From assembly GCA_019683615.1 (NCBI GenBank), contig JADGIC010000009.1, forward strand, positions 1-33,512: a stretch of 33,512 nucleotides of DNA, in the 5' to 3' direction. The notes below the pieces were generated by a model. It ran no database searches and was not told the DNA's origin. It saw nothing but the letters and a program-made list of their open reading frames with translations. How positions within the stretch are numbered: position 1 is the first letter of the stretch; every line of letters starts with the position of its first letter. This document shows, piece by piece, positions 22,188 through 33,298 of the stretch. The position numbers and the translations under genes were made by a program. Origin of the DNA: Alicyclobacillaceae bacterium. Its GTDB lineage: Bacteria > Bacillota > Bacilli > Alicyclobacillales > Alicyclobacillaceae.

Positions 22188-22988
22188 TCAGACGAGGCTT
22201 TCAAACCCGCCAGTCAGAAGCGTCAGCCCTCCGTCCACCCTGATCACCTGGCCGGTGATGAAGCGCGAGGCGTCGCTGGCCAGGAATACGGCCGCGTCGG
22301 CCACGTCCTCCGGGGTGCCGAGCCGGCCGAGCGGCGTGTGGGCGATGACGTCGCGCCGGTACGACTCGTACTGCTCACCCGCGTAAAAGCGGGCGGAGTC
22401 GGTGTCGACGACGCCGGGGCAGAGCGCGTTGCAGGTGATCTGCCGCGGCCCCAGTTCTGCCGCCAGGTATCGGACGAGCGACTCCAGAGCCGCTTTGGCG
22501 GTGCCCAGCAGGGCGTAGCGAGGCAACGTGTAGTCGCTGCCCATGCTGGAGATGGCGATGATGCGGCCGTCCCGCGCCGCTCCCTGAGGGCCTGCCATCA
22601 GGGGCAGCGCGCACTGCACCGCGTGTACCACGCTGTGCACCACCGTCCGGTAGGTGCGGTCCAGGTGGTGCGGTTTCAGTTCCACAACCGGCTTGAAGGC
22701 GCTGGCTGCCGCGTTGGCCACAAACACGTCAAGCCGCCCCCAACGCCGGGCGACTTCGTCGAACATCGCCCGGATCTCGTCGGGTTCCTCCATCTCCGCC
22801 CGCGCGACCCAGGCGTCCCGCCCGAGGTCGCGGATCTGTGCTGCAGTCCGCTCCGCCGCATCCTGGTCCCGCCGGTAGTGGACCACCACGTCCGCGCCCG
22901 CTTTCGCCATCGCAAGCGCGCAGGCGCGTCCAATCCCGCGGCCGCTGCCTGTGATCAACACCTTCTTGCCTTCCAGAACCTTGGTCAT
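22188..22988 (-). CDS. FabL-like SDR enoyl reductase, candidate 1-cyclohexenylcarbonyl-CoA reductase (ChcA-like)
   Basis: A 266-residue short-chain dehydrogenase: TGSGRGIG cofactor motif (13-20), NAA (92-94), catalytic S148, and Y158-x6-K165. The Tyr-x6-Lys spacing, with GRLDVFVANAA, the SSMGS segment and AKAALESLVRYLAAELGPRQI, marks the FabL (enoyl-ACP reductase III) branch rather than ordinary Tyr-x3-Lys ketoreductases, so it should reduce a carbon-carbon double bond of an acyl-CoA or acyl-ACP with NAD(P)H. It follows the FadH-like gene by 119 nt on the same strand. In the context of the AroA-like, ligase and dehydrogenase genes, the last step of cyclohexanecarboxyl-CoA synthesis (the ChcA reaction) is the best inference; an ordinary FabL in fatty acid synthesis is the alternative. 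No clear ribosome binding site precedes the ATG. Confidence 0.8.
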   Translation of the reverse strand: MTKVLEGKKVLITGSGRGIGRACALAMAKAGADVVVHYRRDQDAAERTAAQIRDLGRDAWVARAEMEEPDEIRAMFDEVARRWGRLDVFVANAAASAFKPVVELKPHHLDRTYRTVVHSVVHAVQCALPLMAGPQGAARDGRIIAISSMGSDYTLPRYALLGTAKAALESLVRYLAAELGPRQITCNALCPGVVDTDSARFYAGEQYESYRRDVIAHTPLGRLGTPEDVADAAVFLASDASRFITGQVIRVDGGLTLLTGGFESLV

Positions 22989-23107: not shown

Positions 23108-25123
23108 TCAAATCCGCTGTGCGGCCTCGAACCCTTCGCGAATCGCCCGCGCCGCGTTCAGGCGGACGGTGTCGCGGGCGCCGCCCACCACCTCGAGCGG
23201 CACCCGTCCTTCCAGCGCTGCCACCAGATCGCGGCGGGGCGTCTGGCCGGCGCACAGGATCACCTGGTCCGCTTCCACCAGCCGCTCCTCGCCCTGCATG
23301 ACGCCGACCACCCCTTCCGGCGTGATGGACCGGCACTGGAACTCCGTCCACACCGCGACGCCGAGCGCCTTCAGCTCCGACCGGACCACCCAGCGCGTGG
23401 TGCGGCCGACCGTGGCGGCAATCCGGCGGGATCGGGCGAGAATCGTGACGGAGCGCGGTACCTGGTCGAGGCTCTGGACGCCGTGCTCGCCCAGGAACCC
23501 GAGCACCCGCTCCGGCGGCCGGCCGCCTTTCATCAGGTAGAGGGCCACGTCGCAGCCGATGCCGCCCGCGCCGATGATGGCGATCCGCCGCCCCGCCGCC
23601 ACCCGCCCGGACAAGATGTCGGTGTAACGGACGACGTGGGGCAGGTCCACCCCCGGCAGGTCAGGTACAGCGGGCTCGACGCCCTGGGCCAGGATGACGG
23701 CGTCGTACTCCAGCAGGGTCTGTGGGTTTGCTGCTGTGCCAAGGCGGACATCGACGCCCAGCCGCCAAAGCCACTCGTCGTAGTAGCGGATGGTCTCCCA
23801 GAACTCCTCCTTGCCCTCCACGCGGGCGGCCAAGCGCAGCTGACCGCCGAGCTGTCGCTCCGCTTCGAAGAGCGTGACCTGGTGACCGCGCTCCGCTGCC
23901 GCCCGCGCCGCCTCCAGCCCGGCCGGACCGCCGCCGACGACGGCCACCCGGCGGCTGCGCGAGACCTTCGCCAAGGGCCAGCGGAGTTCGTGGCCGGCGC
24001 GGGGGTTGACCAGGCAGCTGGCGGGCCGCGACGGCCGGTCCATGACGTGGTCGAGGCACGACTGGTTGCAGGCGATGCAGACGTTCAGGCCGCGGCGGTC
24101 GCCGGACAGGGCCTTTTTCGCGAAGGCTGGGTCGGCGAGCCACGGGCGGGCGGGCGCCACAAAGTCGACCCAACCCAAGGCAATCAACTCGTCGGCGAGC
24201 TCCGGCGTATTGATGCGGTTGGCGCCAATCACCGGTATGGTCACGGCTTGGCGGATGCCGGCCGCCACCGGTGCGAAGCCGCCGCGCGGCACCACGGCAG
24301 CGACCGTCGGTACCTGCGACTCGTGCCAGCCGATGCCAACGTTGAGCGCGTCGACGCCGGCTTGCTCCAACCGGCGGGCGTATGTCAGGGTTTCCTCCCA
24401 GGTGGTGCTCCCTGGCATGCAGTCTGCCCCCGACATTCGGAAGATCAGCGGGAAGTCGCCGCTCACCGCCTGTCGGATGGCCTCCACCACTTCGACGCTC
24501 AGCCGCATCCGCCCCTCCAGGTCGCCGCCGTAGCGGTCCTCGCGCTGGTTGGTGAGCGGCGAGAGAAATTCGTTGAGCAGGTAGCCTTCCGATCCCATCA
24601 CCTCGACCGCGTGGAAGCCGGCCTCGCGGGCGAAGCGGGCGGCGTCGGCAAACGCCTGCACGGTCTGCGCGATGTCGTCTTCCGTCATGGCGCGCGGGGT
24701 TTCGCGGGTCAAACGGCACTCCACCGCGCTCGGCGCGAGCGCCGTGGTGCCGATCTCGATCGAGTACGCGTAGCGCCCGGCGTGAAACAGCTGCAGGGCG
24801 ATGCGGCCCCCCGCCTTCTGCACGCGGCTGGCGAGTTGCGCCAACTGGTCGCGGTGAGACGGGTCGGTCAGGCAGAACCAGTGGTCGCCGCCGCCCTCCG
24901 GCCGCACCGCCGCGCCTCCGGTGATGATCAGAGCGGCACAGCCCTGAACGCGCTCCAGGTAGAAGGCGGCAAGGCGGTCGAGTTCGGCCGCATCGCCTTC
25001 GATGCCGAGGTGCATGGACCCCATCAGAATGCGGTGGGGCAGTTCCAAACGACCGATTCGGCCCGGGCGGGCCAATGCCGGATAAGGCCCGGACGCCGGG
25101 CTCGCCACAGTTGCATCGCGCAA
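23108..25123 (-). CDS. FadH-type 2,4-dienoyl-CoA reductase (FMN/FAD/4Fe-4S flavoprotein)
   Basis: A 671-residue Old Yellow Enzyme-type flavoprotein with an N-terminal FMN TIM barrel (about 1-350), a 4Fe-4S cluster motif C349-x2-C352-x3-C356...C370 (CIACNQSC...SCLVNPRAGHE), and a C-terminal FAD/NAD(P) part with VVGGGPAG (395-402) and AIIGAGGIG. Length (E. coli FadH has 672) and the residues matching its active-site Tyr (GSEGYLLNEF) and His (GIGWHES) agree with dienoyl-CoA reductase. The TTG at 25123-25121 is preceded on the minus strand by GAGGAGGG at 6 nt; the frame extends to an ATG at 25201 that has no binding site. Substrate in this context is inferred to be a cyclohexadiene-carboxyl-CoA intermediate. 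It heads the minus-strand operon with the FabL-like gene. Confidence 0.88.
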   Translation of the reverse strand: MRDATVASPASGPYPALARPGRIGRLELPHRILMGSMHLGIEGDAAELDRLAAFYLERVQGCAALIITGGAAVRPEGGGDHWFCLTDPSHRDQLAQLASRVQKAGGRIALQLFHAGRYAYSIEIGTTALAPSAVECRLTRETPRAMTEDDIAQTVQAFADAARFAREAGFHAVEVMGSEGYLLNEFLSPLTNQREDRYGGDLEGRMRLSVEVVEAIRQAVSGDFPLIFRMSGADCMPGSTTWEETLTYARRLEQAGVDALNVGIGWHESQVPTVAAVVPRGGFAPVAAGIRQAVTIPVIGANRINTPELADELIALGWVDFVAPARPWLADPAFAKKALSGDRRGLNVCIACNQSCLDHVMDRPSRPASCLVNPRAGHELRWPLAKVSRSRRVAVVGGGPAGLEAARAAAERGHQVTLFEAERQLGGQLRLAARVEGKEEFWETIRYYDEWLWRLGVDVRLGTAANPQTLLEYDAVILAQGVEPAVPDLPGVDLPHVVRYTDILSGRVAAGRRIAIIGAGGIGCDVALYLMKGGRPPERVLGFLGEHGVQSLDQVPRSVTILARSRRIAATVGRTTRWVVRSELKALGVAVWTEFQCRSITPEGVVGVMQGEERLVEADQVILCAGQTPRRDLVAALEGRVPLEVVGGARDTVRLNAARAIREGFEAAQRI

Positions 25124-25457
25124 CGCGCTCCCTCCTCGTTGAGTTTCTTGGCTGTGGCCGGGAAGCGGGATCGCATACACCCCGCGGGGGAAGTCAGACA
25201 TAAATTTAGGACGAGGTTTTATAATCTGATATTAGCACCAGGTGTTGAATTTGGCGACTCGCTGATGCTAAAATTTTTCTGACGGCGCCGATGTGCGCAC
25301 GGACCACCGAATTCCGCTCAGACCCCCGCATCCGGCAGCCGTCCGCAGCGCCGGCAGCGGTTGTGCCGGTCGGTGAACCCGACGGATGGCTGGCCGGGTG
25401 TGGATGGGGTCGGGTTGCAACCACAACCATCCCATGACGGGAAGAGGCGATAACAAC
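25124..25457. promoter_or_regulatory. Divergent control region between the FadH-like and AroA-like operons
   Basis: This 334-bp spacer holds an AT-rich core (25201-25280) in GC-rich surroundings. In it are TTAGCA (25232-25237) and TGCTAA (25266-25271), an inverted repeat flanking the plus-strand promoter, a CACC-A-GGTG dyad (25236-25244), and CTGAT repeated at 25226 and 25262. Operator sites for a regulator encoded elsewhere are likely. The leader from about 25281 to 25457 is GC rich; I see no known riboswitch. Confidence 0.5.
25245..25274 (+). promoter_or_regulatory. Sigma-A promoter for the AroA-like operon
   Basis: TTGAAT (25245-25250), 18 nt, then TAAAAT (25269-25274) preceded by TGC (extended -10). 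The predicted start near 25281 leaves a leader of about 177 nt. The -10 lies inside the TTAGCA...TGCTAA dyad, so repression by a dyad-binding protein would be direct. Confidence 0.6.
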
Positions 25458-26804
25458 GTGTCCAAATTGATTGTAACCCCCACGCCGGGTGAAGTGAACG
25501 GGACGATTCCGGTGCCCTGCTCCAAATACCACCTCCACCGCGCCCTCATCTTGGGCTCGCTGGCCGACGGCGTGACGGTCGTGCACGGGCGGTCGCAAGC
25601 CAGGCACATTCAAGACACCCTGAATTCGCTCAAGGACCTGGGCGTCCGCGTCGAGCACACGGCGGACGGCTACCGCGTCCACGGCGGCCCGTACGTGCCG
25701 CGCAACGGCCGCGTGCGGGTGGGCAGCTCCGGTTCGACCCTGCAGTTTTTGCTGGGCCTGGGCTCCCGCGCGAGCCGGCCGGTCACCTACGACGGGGTGG
25801 AGGCCCTGCGCCGCCGGCCCATCGGGCCTTTGCTGCGGGCCTTGGGCGAGATTGGGGTGCGCACCGAATCAGCGAACGACCGCCTGCCAGTCACAGTCCA
25901 CCCAGGCCTGCCGAAGGGCGGACGGGTGCAAATCCAGGGTGTGCTCAGCCAGTGGATTTCAGGCCTTTTGATGGTGGCGCCGTTCGCCGCGCAGGACACC
26001 GTGGTGGAGGTGTCGGACCCGTTCAACGAGCGCACGTACGTGCACCTGACGGCGTCGATGCTGGCGCGCTTCGGCATCGAGGTGCGGGCAGAGGCGGACG
26101 AGCGGCGCTGGGTGGTGCCGGCCGGACAGGTGTTTCGCCCGGCAGAGGTGTACCTTGAGCCGGATTTGTCGAGCGCGGCGTTCCCGCTCGTGTACGCGGC
26201 GCTGCACCCGGGTGTCGTGCGCCTGACCGGCGTGGCAGGGGCGGGATCGCACCCGGAGGGCCGGATCCTCGACATTCTGCGCGAGATGGGGGTGGACCTG
26301 GAGATTCGCGAGGCCGCGCGCGAAGTGGTTGTGCGCAACCGCGGCACGCGCCCCCGAGGCATCGACGTCGACATGCAGGACATCCCGGACCTCATACCGA
26401 TTCTCTCGGTGTGCGCGGCGCTCGCCCGCGGCCGCAGTGTGCTGCGGAACATCGGGCCGGGTCGGCTGAAGGAGTCGAACCGGGTGCGGGCGATGCTGCA
26501 GCTGCGGAAGATGGGCGCCCGCATCGAGGAGCAGGGTGACAACCTGGTCATCGACGGTGTGGAGCGGCTCCGCGGCGCGGACATCTCCAGTTTCAACGAC
26601 CACCGCGTCCTGATGGCGTTTGCGGTCGCGGCTAGCGTCGCGGACGGCGAGACGCATCTGACGTTCCCGAACGCCTACCGCATTTCCTACCCGGAGTTCA
26701 TGGACCACATGGCGGCACTCGGCATGCGCTTTGGCGCCCAGGCTCCCGCTGTCGCGGCGGGGTCTGTGGCGGAGAGGGAGCTGGTGGCCAGTGGTGCCCG
26801 GTAA
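25458..26804 (+). CDS. EPSP-synthase (AroA) homologue with altered substrate residues
   Basis: A 448-residue member of the enolpyruvyl transferase family. Aligned by eye with E. coli AroA (E. coli numbers in brackets), kept residues are K23 (K22), R28 (R27), R120 (R124), Q165 (Q171), D311 (D313), K338 (K340), E339 (E341), R342 (R344) and D381-H382-R383 (D384-H385-R386). Changed are S23 to Y24, N94 to S90, T97 to S93, R100 to Q96, S169 to L163, N336 to P334 and K411 (PEP side) to Ile or Arg near 408. Loss of shikimate-3-phosphate and PEP contacts with the core kept suggests a reaction other than EPSP synthesis. The ansJKLM-chcA set contains such a homologue, probably for an elimination on shikimate; that step is inference. 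GTG start after AGAGG (25443-25447); it overlaps the ligase gene by 14 nt. Confidence 0.8.
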   Translation: MSKLIVTPTPGEVNGTIPVPCSKYHLHRALILGSLADGVTVVHGRSQARHIQDTLNSLKDLGVRVEHTADGYRVHGGPYVPRNGRVRVGSSGSTLQFLLGLGSRASRPVTYDGVEALRRRPIGPLLRALGEIGVRTESANDRLPVTVHPGLPKGGRVQIQGVLSQWISGLLMVAPFAAQDTVVEVSDPFNERTYVHLTASMLARFGIEVRAEADERRWVVPAGQVFRPAEVYLEPDLSSAAFPLVYAALHPGVVRLTGVAGAGSHPEGRILDILREMGVDLEIREAAREVVVRNRGTRPRGIDVDMQDIPDLIPILSVCAALARGRSVLRNIGPGRLKESNRVRAMLQLRKMGARIEEQGDNLVIDGVERLRGADISSFNDHRVLMAFAVAASVADGETHLTFPNAYRISYPEFMDHMAALGMRFGAQAPAVAAGSVAERELVASGAR

Positions 26805-28449
26805 TCTCGGCGGTCCGTCCGCCCGCCAGACAGCTTCGTCCGGCGCGGCCGTCGCACTGTTTCTCGACAAGCTGGACAGCACCATCGCCGCGGCGCCGGA
26901 CCGCCTGGCGGTGGTGGACGTGGGCGCCGGCCCGCAGCCGGTGCGGCTCACCTACGGAGAGTTGGGTGAATTGGCGGACCGGATTGCCACGCGGCTGCTT
27001 GAATTGGGTGTGGAGCCCGGCGAGCCGGTCTGCTACCAGTTGCCGAGCGGCTGGGAGTTCATCGCCCTGACGGTGGCGCTGTGGCGCATCGGCGGGGTGC
27101 CCTGCCCGCTGTTGCCGTCGTTGCGGGAGCGAGAGGTCCGGTTCATCGTCCAGACTGCGGGCAGCCGGCTGTTGGTGGTGCCGGACATGTTCCGGGGCTT
27201 TGACTACCGCGGGCTGGTGGACGCCATCCGCCCGGACTTGCCGCGGTTGGCGTCGGTGCACGTGGTGGAGTGGGGCCAGCGCCAGCCGTCCCGCTCCAGC
27301 CTGGGCGGGCTGGTGGCGGAACGGGAGGATCGCCAGGCGGTGCGGGCGCGCCGGCCGGGGGCGGACGACGTGGCGCAACTGTTGTTCACGTCGGGCACGA
27401 CCGGCGAGCCGAAGGGCGTCCTCCACACCCACCGCACGCTGTCCCACGGCCTGGCGGCGCATGTGCAGACCCTGGGCCTGACGGCGTCCGACACCGTCTG
27501 GGTGCCGTCGCCGCTCGCGCACCAGACGGGCTTTTTGTACGGGATGATGTTGTCGTTCTACCTCGGAGCCACCGGCGTCTACCAAGCGGTGTGGAACGTG
27601 GAAGACGCCTGCCGCGCCATCGAGACCTTCGGCGCCCGCTTCGTGCAAGCGGCGATGCCGTTTTTGGCCGACATTACGCACGCCCTGCGGCCGCCGAAAG
27701 GGCTGCGCCTGTTTGTCGCCACCGGCGCCGCCATCCCCCGCGGTTTGGCGCTGGAGGCGCGGGCCGCGTTGGGGTGCGAGGTGGTGGGCGCGTGGGGATC
27801 GACCGAGAGCTGCCTGGTCACCGTCGGCTACCCCGGCGATCCGCCGGAGAAGCTGTGGGGCACGGACGGCCGCGTGATCGGCGGTATGGAGATCCGCATC
27901 GTCGACGATGAGGGCCGGCCGTTGCCGCCAGGAACCGAGGGCAATTTCCAGGTGAAGACGCCGGCAATGTTCATCGGCTACCTGCACCACCCGGAGTGGA
28001 CGCAGGCGGCGATGACGCCGGACGGGTTTTTCAACACGGGCGATCTGGCGGTGGTGGACGCGGACGGCTACCTGCGCATCACCGGCCGCTGCAAGGACGT
28101 GATCAACCGCGGCGGGGAGAAGATCCCGGTGGTGGAGATTGAGAACCTGCTGTACCAGCATCCGCGCATCCGCGACGCGGCTGTCGTCGCAATGCCCGAT
28201 CCGCGCTTGGGCGAGCGGGCGTGCGCGTTTGTCGTGACGAAGGACGGCGGGCTGATGGAGCTGGCGGAGCTGACAGACTTTCTCGGCGCCAACGGGATGG
28301 CGAAGATCTACTGGCCGGAGCGCGTGGAGCCGATTGACGAGCTGCCGCGCACGGCCAGCGGCAAGGTGCAAAAGTACGTGCTGCGCCAGATGATCGCGGA
28401 CAAGCTGAAGGCGGAAGCGGAGGCGGGTGCACCGGCACCGCCGGCGTGA
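26791..28449 (+). CDS. AMP-forming acyl-CoA ligase (cyclohexanecarboxylate-CoA ligase-like)
   Basis: A 552-residue ANL-superfamily enzyme that activates a carboxylic acid as acyl-AMP and then as CoA thioester. The P-loop LLFTSGTTGEPKGVLHTH is at about 197-214, GAWGSTE is the A5-type motif, FNTGDLAVVDADGYLRITGRCKDVINRGG holds the hinge and adenylate contacts in consecutive segments, and the C-terminal catalytic Lys is in TASGKVQKYVLR (about K525). It resembles the AliA and medium-chain ligase branch. GTG at 26791, 10 nt after AGGGAG, overlaps the AroA-like gene by 14 nt, so the two are coupled. The inferred substrate is shikimate or a dehydrated cyclohexene-carboxylate derived from it. Confidence 0.88.
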   Translation: MVPGNLGGPSARQTASSGAAVALFLDKLDSTIAAAPDRLAVVDVGAGPQPVRLTYGELGELADRIATRLLELGVEPGEPVCYQLPSGWEFIALTVALWRIGGVPCPLLPSLREREVRFIVQTAGSRLLVVPDMFRGFDYRGLVDAIRPDLPRLASVHVVEWGQRQPSRSSLGGLVAEREDRQAVRARRPGADDVAQLLFTSGTTGEPKGVLHTHRTLSHGLAAHVQTLGLTASDTVWVPSPLAHQTGFLYGMMLSFYLGATGVYQAVWNVEDACRAIETFGARFVQAAMPFLADITHALRPPKGLRLFVATGAAIPRGLALEARAALGCEVVGAWGSTESCLVTVGYPGDPPEKLWGTDGRVIGGMEIRIVDDEGRPLPPGTEGNFQVKTPAMFIGYLHHPEWTQAAMTPDGFFNTGDLAVVDADGYLRITGRCKDVINRGGEKIPVVEIENLLYQHPRIRDAAVVAMPDPRLGERACAFVVTKDGGLMELAELTDFLGANGMAKIYWPERVEPIDELPRTASGKVQKYVLRQMIADKLKAEAEAGAPAPPA

Positions 28450-28563
28450 TCCGCGCGTGTGCGGGACGGTTGGGCGCGGCCACAAGGTCGGGTTTCGGAC
28501 GGCCGCGGACAGCAGGATGGCCGTGCGCAAGACGGCCGTGCGACGGATGAGGAGGTGGCGCCG

Positions 28564-29802
28564 TTGAGTTTTGGGGCCAGGGACGGCGGGCCGGATGTGC
28601 GGGACGTGCCGGATGCAGCGGGCAGGGCTGGCGCCCAGGGCGCGCTTGGCGCGTTCGACGGGGGTGCGTCCGACGCGGGTGCGTACGCAGCCCTGATGGA
28701 CGAGGTGCGGGCCTTCGTGCAGGGTCCGGCGCGGGCGTGGGGCGAGCAGATTGAGACCACCGGCCGGCTGCCGGACGGGGTGTGGGAGGAGCTGCGCGAT
28801 CGCGGCTACCTTCGCCTCGCGGCGCCGACGGCGTACGGCGGCCGCGGCCTGCCGTTCACCGCGTACCTGGCGCTGCTCGAGCAGTTTGCTCAGATGCACG
28901 GGTCGTTGCGTGTGATTGTCCACGTCTGCAACGGATTGTGGCGGTCGCTGGATTACGCCGCCACGGAGGCGCAGCGCGAGCGGATTGTCAAGCCGTTTGT
29001 GGCGGGCCGGCGGCGCGTCACGTTCACGCTGACCGAGCCCGACTCCGGCTCCGGCACGGACATCCGGACCACGGCCCGCCGCGAGGGCGACGAGTACGTC
29101 TTGAACGGGCAGAAGTGGATGATCATCTTCTCAGACGTGGCTGACGACTTCCTTGTGTTCTGCCGGCTCGAAGGCACGCGCGGCGCGGAGGGCACGCTGG
29201 CGCTGCTCGTGCCGCGAGACGCGCCGGGTCTGGAAATTCGTCCGATGGCGCCGGCGATGGGCGTCAGCGGGACGCAGCACGGCCACCTGGTGTTCACTGA
29301 CTGCCGCGTGCCCGTGTCGAACCGGCTGGGTGCGGAGGGTCAGGGGCTGGAGATTGCGTTCGCCGGCTTCCTGGACCCGAGCCGCATCGGCGTTGCCGCC
29401 ACCTGCGTGGGACTGGCTTCCCGCGCTCTGGACCTGGCTGTCGATCACGCCCGCCGCCGCATCACCTTCGGCAAACCGCTGGCCAAGCGGCAGACCATCC
29501 AGATGTGGGTCGGCGAGATGGCGACCGACATTGAGGCGGGCCGGCAGCTGTACCTTCACGCGGCGCGGGCCTTCGAGGAAGGGCGGCCGGCGACGGTCCC
29601 GGCGGCGATGGCGAAGCTGTTTTGCACCGACATGCTGCAGCGCGTGACCGACAAAGCATTGCAGATCCACGGCGGCATCGGGTACTTCCGGTCGTCGGAA
29701 ATTGAGCGGATTTACCGGGACGCCCGGATGCAGCGGTTTGAAGAGGGCACGGCGGAGATTCAGAAGATGGTCATCGCGCGCGAGCGGTTGCGGAAGACGT
29801 GA
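28564..29802 (+). CDS. Acyl-CoA dehydrogenase family protein
   Basis: A 412-residue FAD enzyme. After a Gly/Ala/Asp-rich N-terminal extension of about 30 residues comes the acyl-CoA dehydrogenase fold: FTLTEPDSGSGTD (FAD contact), LNGQKWMI, RRRITFGKPLAKRQTIQ, QIHGGIGYF, and the catalytic Glu E394 in RFEEGTAEIQ. Such enzymes introduce or, in reverse, remove an alpha-beta double bond in an acyl-CoA. The TTG at 28564 follows AGGAGGTG (28550-28557) by 6 nt; a GTG at 28459 is also in frame but has no site. It follows the ligase by 114 nt. In the CHC-CoA scheme it would act on a cyclohexene- or cyclohexane-carboxyl-CoA; the direction cannot be read from sequence. Confidence 0.9.
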   Translation: MSFGARDGGPDVRDVPDAAGRAGAQGALGAFDGGASDAGAYAALMDEVRAFVQGPARAWGEQIETTGRLPDGVWEELRDRGYLRLAAPTAYGGRGLPFTAYLALLEQFAQMHGSLRVIVHVCNGLWRSLDYAATEAQRERIVKPFVAGRRRVTFTLTEPDSGSGTDIRTTARREGDEYVLNGQKWMIIFSDVADDFLVFCRLEGTRGAEGTLALLVPRDAPGLEIRPMAPAMGVSGTQHGHLVFTDCRVPVSNRLGAEGQGLEIAFAGFLDPSRIGVAATCVGLASRALDLAVDHARRRITFGKPLAKRQTIQMWVGEMATDIEAGRQLYLHAARAFEEGRPATVPAAMAKLFCTDMLQRVTDKALQIHGGIGYFRSSEIERIYRDARMQRFEEGTAEIQKMVIARERLRKT

Positions 29803-29910: not shown

Positions 29911-31023
29911 ATGAACGTGATTGTGTTCATGCGAGATGGCGGATCGGGCGGCGAGGCGGAGTTGGCAGCGGTGGTGAAGGCGTTGACGGATCGCGGCTTT
30001 GCCTGTCACGCGGTGAACGGCGGCGTCCGGGCCGTGGTGGTGCAGGGCGGTGACGCCGAGGCGGAGCGGTTGGTGCTCGGCATGCCCGGGGTTCATCGCG
30101 TGGTCCTGGCGCACCCCGGGTACGCGCTGGCGAGCCGGGAAGTGCATCCGGCCGACACCGTGATCCGCGTCGGCTCCGTGGAGATTGGCGGCCAGGAGCC
30201 GGTCATCATGGCGGGACCGTGCTCGGTCGAGTCGCTCGACGGGCTCCTCGAGGTCGCCGAGCAGGTGCGCGCCGCCGGGGCGAACGTCCTGCGCGGCGGG
30301 GCGTTCAAGCCGCGCTCCTCCCCGTATTCGTTTCAGGGCCTCGGCGAGGAGGGCCTGAAGTACCTCGCCATCGCCCGCGAGAAGACCGGGCTGCCGGTCA
30401 TCTCGGAGGTGATGGAGCCGGACGCGGTGGGTCTCGTCGCTTCCTACGTCGACATCCTTCAAATAGGCGCCCGCAACATGCAGAACTTCTCGCTCCTGCG
30501 GGCGGTGGGCCGCTCCGGCAAGCCGGTCATGCTGAAGCGTGGCCTGTCCGCCACCATCGAGGAGTGGCTGATGGCGGCCGAGTACATCCTGGCACAGGGT
30601 AACCCAAACGTGATGCTGTGCGAGCGCGGCATCCGCACGTTTGAGACGTACACCCGCAACACGTTGGACCTGAATGCGGTGCCGGTGGTGCGCCATCTCT
30701 CGCACCTGCCCGTGATTGTCGATCCCAGCCATGGCGTCGGCAAGTGGCGCTACGTCAACGCGATGGCGCGGGCGTCCATCGCCGCTGGGGCACACGGTCT
30801 CATTGTGGAGGTCCACGCCAACCCGGACAAGGCGCTGTCGGACGGCGCGCAGTCGCTGACACCCGCGCGGTTCGCACAAATGGTGCGGGAGGTCCGCTAC
30901 ATTGCCGCCGCGCTGCGGGCGATGGACGGGGCAGAACCGCCTGCGGACGCTGCGGCAGGGGCGGAGGCAGTGTCTCTGTCTGCAGGTGCAGGTACCGGGT
31001 CGGGGACGCTGGTGACGGTGTGA
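29911..31023 (+). CDS. aroF: DAHP synthase (AroF-type, KDO8P-synthase-like class with N-terminal regulatory domain)
   Basis: 3-Deoxy-D-arabino-heptulosonate-7-phosphate synthase condenses phosphoenolpyruvate and erythrose 4-phosphate, the first step of the shikimate pathway. The 370 residues have an N-terminal ferredoxin-like domain (1-80), as in the Thermotoga-type enzyme where it mediates feedback inhibition, then the TIM barrel with AGPCSVE (101-107), KPR (133-135) and metal ligands C104, H274, E300 and D311. The ATG follows GGGAGGAG. A C-terminal Ala/Gly-rich tail of about 35 residues is not conserved. It is the last gene of the plus-strand run, 108 nt after the dehydrogenase, and would raise shikimate supply for the cluster. 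Confidence 0.93.
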
Positions 31024-31699: not shown

Positions 31700-32458
31700 T
31701 TACCGCTTGAACGCCGCCGCGCCGTCGTCGACGAAGTAGGCGTGGCCGTTCACGAACGACGCGTCGTCGCTCGCGAGAAACGCCACCACCTTCGCCACCT
31801 GCTCCGGCTTGCCGAACTCGCCGCGCATGTGGGCGCGTTTGAGGATGTTCCAGGCGTGTTCGTTCTCGCGCCACTGGTCCACCAGCGGCGTGTCGATCAT
31901 CCCGGGTGCCACAGCCACCACCCGAATGTTGTACTTCGCGAGTTCCAGCGCCGCGGCCTTGGTCATCGCCACGACGGCCGCTTTGCTGGCGTGGTACGGG
32001 AGCTGCCGACGGTCCACGATGTACGCGTAGATGGACGCCGTGTTGATGATCACGCCGCCCGTCTCCCTCATCGCCGCTGCGGCCGCCTTGATCCCGTAAA
32101 ACACCCCGTCCTGGTTGACGCGCACCACTCGGTGGTACTCCTCGACGGGCATCTCCAAAACGCTGTCGCGCCCGTCGCCAAAGACACCCGCGTTGTTGAA
32201 CATGATGTCGAGCCGCCCGTAGGCGTCGACGGTGCGGCGGACCAACGCCGTCACGCTCTCGAATGACGTCACGTCGGTCCGGCAAAACTGGGCGATCCCG
32301 CCCGCCTCCTCAATCAACCGCACCGTCTCCCGGCCGGCCGCCTCGTCGATGTCCGCCACGGTCACCCGCGCGCCCTCGCGGGCGAACAGCTGCGCGGTGG
32401 CCCGCCCAATGCCGCCGCCACCCCCCGTGACGATAGCCACTTTATTGACAAATCGCAT
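31700..32458 (-). CDS. Short-chain dehydrogenase/reductase, classical type
   Basis: A 252-residue classical SDR: TGGGGGIG (11-18) for the dinucleotide, D36 after the second strand (VADID), which favours NAD(H), NNAG (88-91), S142, and the Tyr-x3-Lys pair Y155-K159. Such proteins reduce or oxidise keto/hydroxyl groups, in contrast to the Tyr-x6-Lys enoyl reductase type at 22188. The ATG follows GGGAGG by 7 nt. The YbgC-like thioesterase gene lies upstream on the same strand, 123 nt away. A role in the same acyl-CoA pathway, for example handling a ring hydroxyl, is possible but rests on proximity only. Confidence 0.88.
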   Translation of the reverse strand: MRFVNKVAIVTGGGGGIGRATAQLFAREGARVTVADIDEAAGRETVRLIEEAGGIAQFCRTDVTSFESVTALVRRTVDAYGRLDIMFNNAGVFGDGRDSVLEMPVEEYHRVVRVNQDGVFYGIKAAAAAMRETGGVIINTASIYAYIVDRRQLPYHASKAAVVAMTKAAALELAKYNIRVVAVAPGMIDTPLVDQWRENEHAWNILKRAHMRGEFGKPEQVAKVVAFLASDDASFVNGHAYFVDDGAAAFKR

Positions 32459-32581
32459 GGATGAACCTCCCAAGGTGATGTGAGATGTGTTGTTGATGAA
32501 GGCTGTCAACTGTCGTTGAGTGTCATGCAACGGCGAGTGCTGACAGACAGCGGGCGGTTCTGCTCGCGCTGCATCCAGGGA

Positions 32582-32986
32582 TCAGATACCTTCCACCGCA
32601 CAGATCCGCTCCCGCCATTCGTCCGGGACAGGTGCCGGGCGTCCAGAGGCGGGATCGACATTGACGTAGACCGTCTCTGCGTCGAGCAGCCGCTCGTCCT
32701 CCCGGCTGATCACAAACTGCAACGTCAGACTGGTCCGTCCCAACGCCTTTGTTCGCACCCACACGTTCAGTGCATCGTCAAAGCGAGCCGGCCGGTGAAA
32801 TTCCAGCGTCGTCTTCACGATCACCGTGTGCAGGATGCTTCCAGGGTCAACGCCAAGCCCGCTGCGAAGGTACTCAAAAAACGCGCAGTCCAGGTAGGTG
32901 AGATAGTTGGCGTTAAACACAATTCCCTGGGCATCCACCTCCGCCCAGCGAACTCGCAGCGGATACGCAAATCGGAATCCGTCCAT
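32582..32986 (-). CDS. YbgC/FadM-type 4-hydroxybenzoyl-CoA thioesterase family protein
   Basis: A 134-residue hotdog-fold protein. RWAEVDAQGIVFNANYLTYLD is the active-site region of the 4HBT/YbgC family, with D18 as the catalytic Asp, followed by a long helix (FFEYLR). Members hydrolyse short- or medium-chain, branched or aromatic acyl-CoAs. The ATG follows GAGGGG by 8 nt on the minus strand. It has a leader of about 165 nt and a credible sigma-A promoter, and probably forms an operon with the SDR. It may recycle CoA from ring acyl-CoA, but substrate is unknown. Confidence 0.85.
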   Translation of the reverse strand: MDGFRFAYPLRVRWAEVDAQGIVFNANYLTYLDCAFFEYLRSGLGVDPGSILHTVIVKTTLEFHRPARFDDALNVWVRTKALGRTSLTLQFVISREDERLLDAETVYVNVDPASGRPAPVPDEWRERICAVEGI

Positions 32987-33298
32987 AAGAACAACCCCTC
33001 GTAATGAAACGACGTTAGGAGAGACCAGAACAGATCTGATCACGCAATCACGCATCGGACCAGGCATGGAGGAGCAAGTCCAGCGGAGCTCGCGCGGTAC
33101 CTCATTGGTTCACAATTTTCCTTCCTTCACAGACGGCACCACGCGGCTTGCCCTCGTATCATTCTACAGGGGTTGGGGGATTCGTTTCAAAGGTGGATCT
33201 GTGCAAGATCCCTGTCAAGTTTCAGTAGGGGAGACCTCATTGGCTACCGTGCTTAGGTCACGGAATGGGGCGATCACGCCAGTCCCCGAAGCATATCT
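32987..33298. other. Long leader and intergenic region before the YbgC-like gene
   Basis: No coding frame looks credible on either strand. On the minus strand the region holds the promoter at 33190-33161 and a leader with AATGAGGTACCGCG (about 33106-33093), which resembles part of the T-box antiterminator core; specifier stem and terminator are not seen. Beyond the promoter (33191-33298) I see nothing definite. Confidence 0.4.
33161..33190 (-). promoter_or_regulatory. Sigma-A promoter for the YbgC-like thioesterase and SDR genes
   Basis: On the minus strand TTGAAA (33190-33185), 18 nt, then TAGAAT (33166-33161) gives good matches to both hexamers. The predicted start near 33154 leaves a leader of about 165 nt before the ATG at 32986. 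Confidence 0.5.

Follow-up and report, generated by a model that had tools for sequence, protein, structure and literature searches.

AroA2, a divergent EPSP synthase paralog in a cyclohexanecarboxyl-CoA-type gene cluster of Bacillota

The AroA2 gene and its cluster

The window, the whole stretch of 33,512 nucleotides analyzed here, belongs to the 2.4 Mb bin of an uncultured Alicyclobacillaceae organism (85.6% complete) and encodes a paralog of EPSP synthase (EPSPS), designated AroA2, together with the genes listed in Table 1. The AroA2 open reading frame is complete, with a GTG codon at 25458 that matches the starts of its orthologs and a stop codon at 26802-26804. PF00275 and TIGR01356 cover the protein over its full length; the TIGR01356 score of 327.2 bits exceeds the cut-off of 287.25, and the aroA label of this model, matched by all 15 AroA2 clade members tested, is the one AroA2 would receive in annotation. 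Against the MurA model it scores 70.7 bits, far under the cut-off of 392.7.

Table 1. Genes of the AroA2 cluster in the window.
Feature	Position	Strand	Basis
SDR, FabL-like; candidate ChcA (1-cyclohexenylcarbonyl-CoA reductase)	22188..22988	-	profile, synteny
OYE/FadH-type 2,4-dienoyl-CoA reductase-like; divergent from AroA2; homology from about residue 37	23108..25201	-	profile, synteny
AroA2: EPSP-synthase-fold paralog, 448 aa, GTG start	25458..26804	+	TIGR01356, alignment, model, dN/dS
LIG: acyl-CoA ligase; probable GTG start (26791 or 26794) overlaps the end of AroA2	26791..28449	+	profile, synteny
ACAD: flavoenzyme with an acyl-CoA dehydrogenase fold; FEEGT motif with the catalytic Glu retained	28696..29802	+	profile, synteny
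DAHP synthase, shikimate-pathway entry enzyme	29911..31023	+	TIGR01361, 407 bits, over cut-off
Second SDR, in Alicyclobacillaceae-type clusters only	31700..32530	-	profile, synteny
YbgC/FadM-type acyl-CoA thioesterase	32582..33067	-	profile, synteny

Four PF00275 proteins were found in the bin: two MurA proteins, AroA2, and a canonical AroA (contig C216, locus L002) scoring 410 bits against TIGR01356, so that AroA2 is not the sole AroA of its genome. This agrees with the original prediction of an EPSPS-fold enzyme distinct from the chorismate-pathway AroA of the cell, and removes the objection, raised together with it, that the genome might hold no other aroA. A canonical AroA was also found in all 13 AroA2-bearing genomes checked, a set to which the Sporolactobacillus genome does not belong. 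The AroA2 sequences form one clade (SH-aLRT 100), separate from both canonical AroA and MurA.

In all 16 loci, which span three families, AroA2 is immediately followed by the ligase and dehydrogenase genes; the OYE and SDR genes are linked to it in 15 of these, the exception (L049) ending at a contig edge, and most clusters of the Alicyclobacillaceae type also include the DAHP synthase gene. AroA2 orthologs were found in four other Alicyclobacillaceae-type genomes, in Cohnella, Paenibacillus, and Sporolactobacillus, and in two more Bacillota bins, the scan of the genome-collection contigs having returned Bacillota only. In Paenibacillus glycinis T1 there are two such clusters, separate from each other (L051, L059). 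Cyclohexanecarboxylate-CoA ligases are the nearest named relatives of LIG (43% to AliA), and its best NCBIfam model is that of cyclohexanecarboxylate-CoA ligase, with a score below the cut-off of that model. The listed ACAD reading frame starts at 28459, with homology only from about 28690. Residue 159 of this reading frame, on a helix close to where the acyl pocket is expected, is glycine in 15/16 AroA2-bearing clusters and serine in 10/10 clusters lacking AroA2; we give this substitution no weight because its pattern follows the tree too closely.

The ligase, ACAD, OYE, and ChcA-like SDR genes linked here are orthologous to those clustered in Alicyclobacillus acidocaldarius DSM 446, whose fatty acids include about 51% omega-cyclohexane C17 and 33% omega-cyclohexane C19 acids (PMC3035248). 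Judged by gene content, synteny, and these lipids, which come from a strain other than the AroA2 bearers, the gene set would fit synthesis of cyclohexanecarboxyl-CoA (CHC-CoA) from shikimate, the route that gives rise to omega-cyclohexyl fatty acids. Lipids of this type are heat- and acid-resistant membrane lipids whose ring is derived from shikimate. The cyclohexane carboxylate of ansatrienin is labelled by shikimate (PMC8788734).

No Streptomyces CHC cluster was found among the plasmid records searched. The lone Streptomyces aroA match, on a plasmid (L105:9938-12756), adjoins a gpmI-type phosphoglycerate mutase gene amid ArsR, ArsC, and phosphate-transport genes, and likely belongs to a cluster for an arsenic metabolite that has an AroA-like enzyme of its own. 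The CHC-CoA clusters of Streptomyces that produce ansatrienin and asukamycin reportedly have a five-gene content comparable to that of the cluster in the window; one of the genes in the ansatrienin cluster of S. collinus (ansJKLM and chcA) may be EPSPS-like, and the title of a later paper reportedly names a promiscuous shikimoyl-CoA synthetase and an FAD-dependent dehydratase. If that EPSPS-like gene is confirmed, it would already be known that CHC clusters can contain an AroA-like gene, and the residue signature and displacement series described below would be what is new. In the open literature, a scope outside which Cropp 2000 and Rui 2010 fall, we found no account of an EPSPS homolog that takes part in CHC-CoA synthesis.

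Fold and active-site residues

The AlphaFold2 model of AroA2, built from a 15-row alignment (pLDDT 91, pTM 0.89), has the two-domain EPSPS fold and resembles closed EPSPS. Its best PDB matches are EPSPS complexes with S3P/glyphosate (Z 48, 2.1-2.2 Å), and the whole fold is shared with E. coli EPSPS (AroA, EC 2.5.1.19, 1G6S; 2.2 Å over 415 residues, about 31% identity). MurA (UDP-GlcNAc enolpyruvyltransferase), a PEP enolpyruvyltransferase with a divergent acceptor, belongs to the same superfamily and shares the fold (Z 41); AroA2 is 20% identical to it and lacks the MurA acceptor motif. A fold shared with EPSPS, here in a predicted structure, does not establish the function of AroA2.

Residues were compared between 16 AroA2 orthologs and 41 canonical AroAs by HMMER alignment in E. 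coli EPSPS (1G6S) numbering. K22, S23, T97, R100, R124, and S169 correspond to AroA2 K23, Y24, S93, Q96, R120, and L163, and D313, N336, E341, R344, the DHR motif, and K411 to D311, P334, E339, R342, residues 381-383, and I409 (preceded by R408); the correspondences that the original prediction had drawn by eye proved right at every position. AroA2 retains 26 of the 31 columns fixed in canonical AroAs, including K22, R27, G96, R124, Q171, D242, D313, E341, R344, D384, H385, and R386. Among the AroA2 orthologs, K22, R124, D313, E341, R344, H385, and R386 are invariant (16/16). The active-site columns among the five lost are D49H, R100Q, and S169L, each changed in all 16 orthologs, and S23Y and S197E are likewise invariant there and occur in none of the canonical AroAs compared, which have aspartate at 49, arginine at 100, serine at 169, and serine or asparagine at 23 in 41 of 41 sequences. 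Aspartate at position 49 is also found in the three MurAs aligned. These substitutions are not due to chance, since most are fixed in 16/16 orthologs and AroA2 is under purifying selection (dN/dS of 0.12 against an ortholog 81% identical).

Not every replaced residue is equally informative. K411I/V, changes at N336, and T97A are also seen in ordinary AroAs, even sole copies: three genomes (G011, G021, G022) encode a single AroA, with Ile411 and Glu336, and two MurA proteins each. Such changes are therefore not diagnostic, and of the losses listed in the original prediction only S23, R100, and S169 set AroA2 apart, to which D49H and S197E, absent from that list, add two telling changes. In many Alicyclobacillaceae (L002, L013-L024), the canonical AroA has histidine at the positions of E. 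coli K340 and N336, and in other genomes of the family the AroA is of another type, marked by I/V411 and E336.

In E. coli EPSPS, S169, S170, and S197 hold the 3-phosphate of shikimate 3-phosphate (S3P) and S23 and R27 its carboxylate, whereas PEP is held by K22, G96, R124, R344, R386, and K411, with D313 as the base and E341 as the acid. Set against these contacts, the residues kept and lost indicate that it is mainly the acceptor side that has changed, the phosphate pocket in particular, and that most PEP ligands are preserved; the replacement of D49 and R100, both fixed in canonical AroAs, suggests that the PEP side may be altered too. The loss of PEP contacts was overstated in the original prediction, as K22, G96, R124, Q171, E341, R344, H385, and R386 are invariant.

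A further group of AroA-like second copies, linked to IclR-type regulator genes, resembles AroA2 in S197E, F172W, K411I, and the loss of R100 (L035-L039, L041), but keeps S23 and D49, has R100Y and S169N, lies in regulator-transporter operons, and forms a separate clade. These paralogs occur in six Bacillota genomes (L165-L170), each also with a canonical AroA; they lie between a regulator gene of the IclR type and genes for a transporter, either a branched-chain-amino-acid ABC system or one of the TRAP type, and pass the aroA model at 380 bits. The seven loci L035-L041 were therefore rejected as a set of canonical AroAs, six of the seven being second paralogs and L040, in an aro operon, being canonical.

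Clusters without AroA2

Among 41 Alicyclobacillaceae genomes, the OYE-ligase cluster is present in 24 and AroA2 in only five. The cluster of A. acidocaldarius DSM 446 (L094) has orthologs of the ligase, ACAD, OYE, SDR, and DAHP synthase of the window (61-74% identity), but lacks AroA2, and a second ligase-ACAD-alcohol dehydrogenase module adjoins it instead; no second AroA was found elsewhere in this complete genome. AroA2 is thus dispensable, and not a required step, in the cluster of a proven omega-cyclohexyl producer. In a tree of the ligase, ACAD, OYE, and SDR, with the root placed on the Paenibacillaceae-Sporolactobacillus side, clusters lacking AroA2 are nested inside AroA2-bearing ones, with at least three changes.

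In all ten clusters that lack AroA2 and whose flanks are intact, a second ligase and dehydrogenase (LIG2-ACAD2), about 30% and 40% identical to the first, lie next to the SDR gene; a zinc alcohol dehydrogenase gene usually comes after them, in some cases together with an SDR gene (L172-L177, L094, L097-L099). ACAD2 is present in 23/24 cluster-bearing and 2/17 other genomes of the family (Fisher p 3e-8, with genomes treated as independent). In the AroA2-less genome G010, whose cluster runs off the contig end, no second ligase-dehydrogenase pair was seen. Four of the five AroA2-bearing genomes of the family carry the module elsewhere in the genome, and in A. mengziensis the two are adjacent. Outside the family, in nine AroA2-bearing genomes, ACAD2 finds no better match than the first ACAD (40-45%).

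A strict either-or relation between AroA2 and LIG2-ACAD2 holds for cluster linkage, except in A. mengziensis, but was rejected at the genome level because AroA2-bearing Alicyclobacillaceae keep the pair elsewhere. Three gene states are found: AroA2 alone, both, and the module alone. Together with the nesting of AroA2-less clusters and the second pair in all ten of those whose flanks are intact, they suggest a stepwise, non-orthologous displacement of AroA2 by the second module, to be read as a correlation because AroA2-bearing Alicyclobacillaceae also have the module, unlinked, and so do two genomes lacking the cluster.

Proposed role of AroA2 and alternative readings

Our leading, still tentative reading is that AroA2 is an EPSPS paralog dedicated to CHC-CoA synthesis, probably using PEP on an unphosphorylated shikimate-like free acid in a replaceable step. 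PEP-dependent enolpyruvyl transfer to such an acid is favored because the PEP-binding and catalytic residues are kept and the S3P pocket is not. AroA2 would bind PEP and perform EPSPS-type addition and elimination with the same acid-base residues (K22, D313, E341); the former 3-phosphate pocket is now occupied by leucine (S169L) and glutamate (S197E). Either ahead of CoA activation by the neighboring ligase or at about that stage, a ring hydroxyl could in this way be marked as an enolpyruvyl ether, which could later leave as pyruvate; ACAD, OYE, and SDR would afterwards dehydrate and reduce the ring. In the Alicyclobacillaceae, the second ligase-dehydrogenase-alcohol dehydrogenase module seems to have taken over the step, with repeated loss of AroA2. 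The full sequence of events is possible but rather doubtful: PEP would drive the deoxygenation of an early intermediate or of free shikimate itself, and in Alicyclobacillus a module of CoA ligase, flavin dehydratase, and alcohol dehydrogenase would later have supplanted this step and fulfilled its function.

The main rival, which we regard as unlikely, is a PEP-free dehydratase that would convert free shikimate into a dihydroxy-cyclohexadiene carboxylate by 1,4-elimination of water, with E197 in the emptied phosphate pocket protonating the departing 3-hydroxyl. The pathway requires dehydrations, D49 and R100 are gone, and the rebuilt acceptor pocket places a carboxylate at the former 3-phosphate site; yet K22, R124, R344, H385, R386, and E341, which hold and protonate PEP in EPSPS, are invariant, and an enzyme of this kind should not need them.

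It is improbable that AroA2 is a second working EPSP synthase, present in the cluster by chance and providing more chorismate flux or inhibitor tolerance. The TIGR01356 equivalog cut-off is passed, catalytic residues are retained, and a DAHP synthase gene lies nearby, but S23, D49, R100, S169, and S197 are invariantly lost, a glutamate occupies the phosphate pocket, the cluster linkage holds at every locus across three families, and a canonical AroA accompanies AroA2 wherever checked.

Slightly less probable still is the original view of an EPSPS-fold enzyme performing the elimination step on a CoA thioester such as shikimoyl-CoA, since, although a CoA ligase and enzymes of CoA thioesters adjoin and S23Y changes the end of the pocket where the substrate carboxylate is bound, the other carboxylate contact, R27, is invariant, no CoA-binding feature was seen in AroA2, the model is that of a closed EPSPS, and the retention of the whole PEP-binding and catalytic set speaks against elimination chemistry. 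The unphosphorylated substrate offered in the same prediction fares better, the rebuilt acceptor pocket and the CHC-CoA-type cluster being consistent with it.

Annotation would name the whole AroA2 clade aroA, the glyphosate target, despite the replacement of residues that are fixed in real AroAs. Shikimate loses three hydroxyls on its way to the cyclohexane ring, and to our knowledge the early step of this route is poorly assigned; genomes with AroA2 only, with both AroA2 and the second module, or with the second module only make it directly testable. As CHC-CoA is the starter unit of doramectin and phoslactomycin, the answer for AroA2 bears on the production of both compounds.
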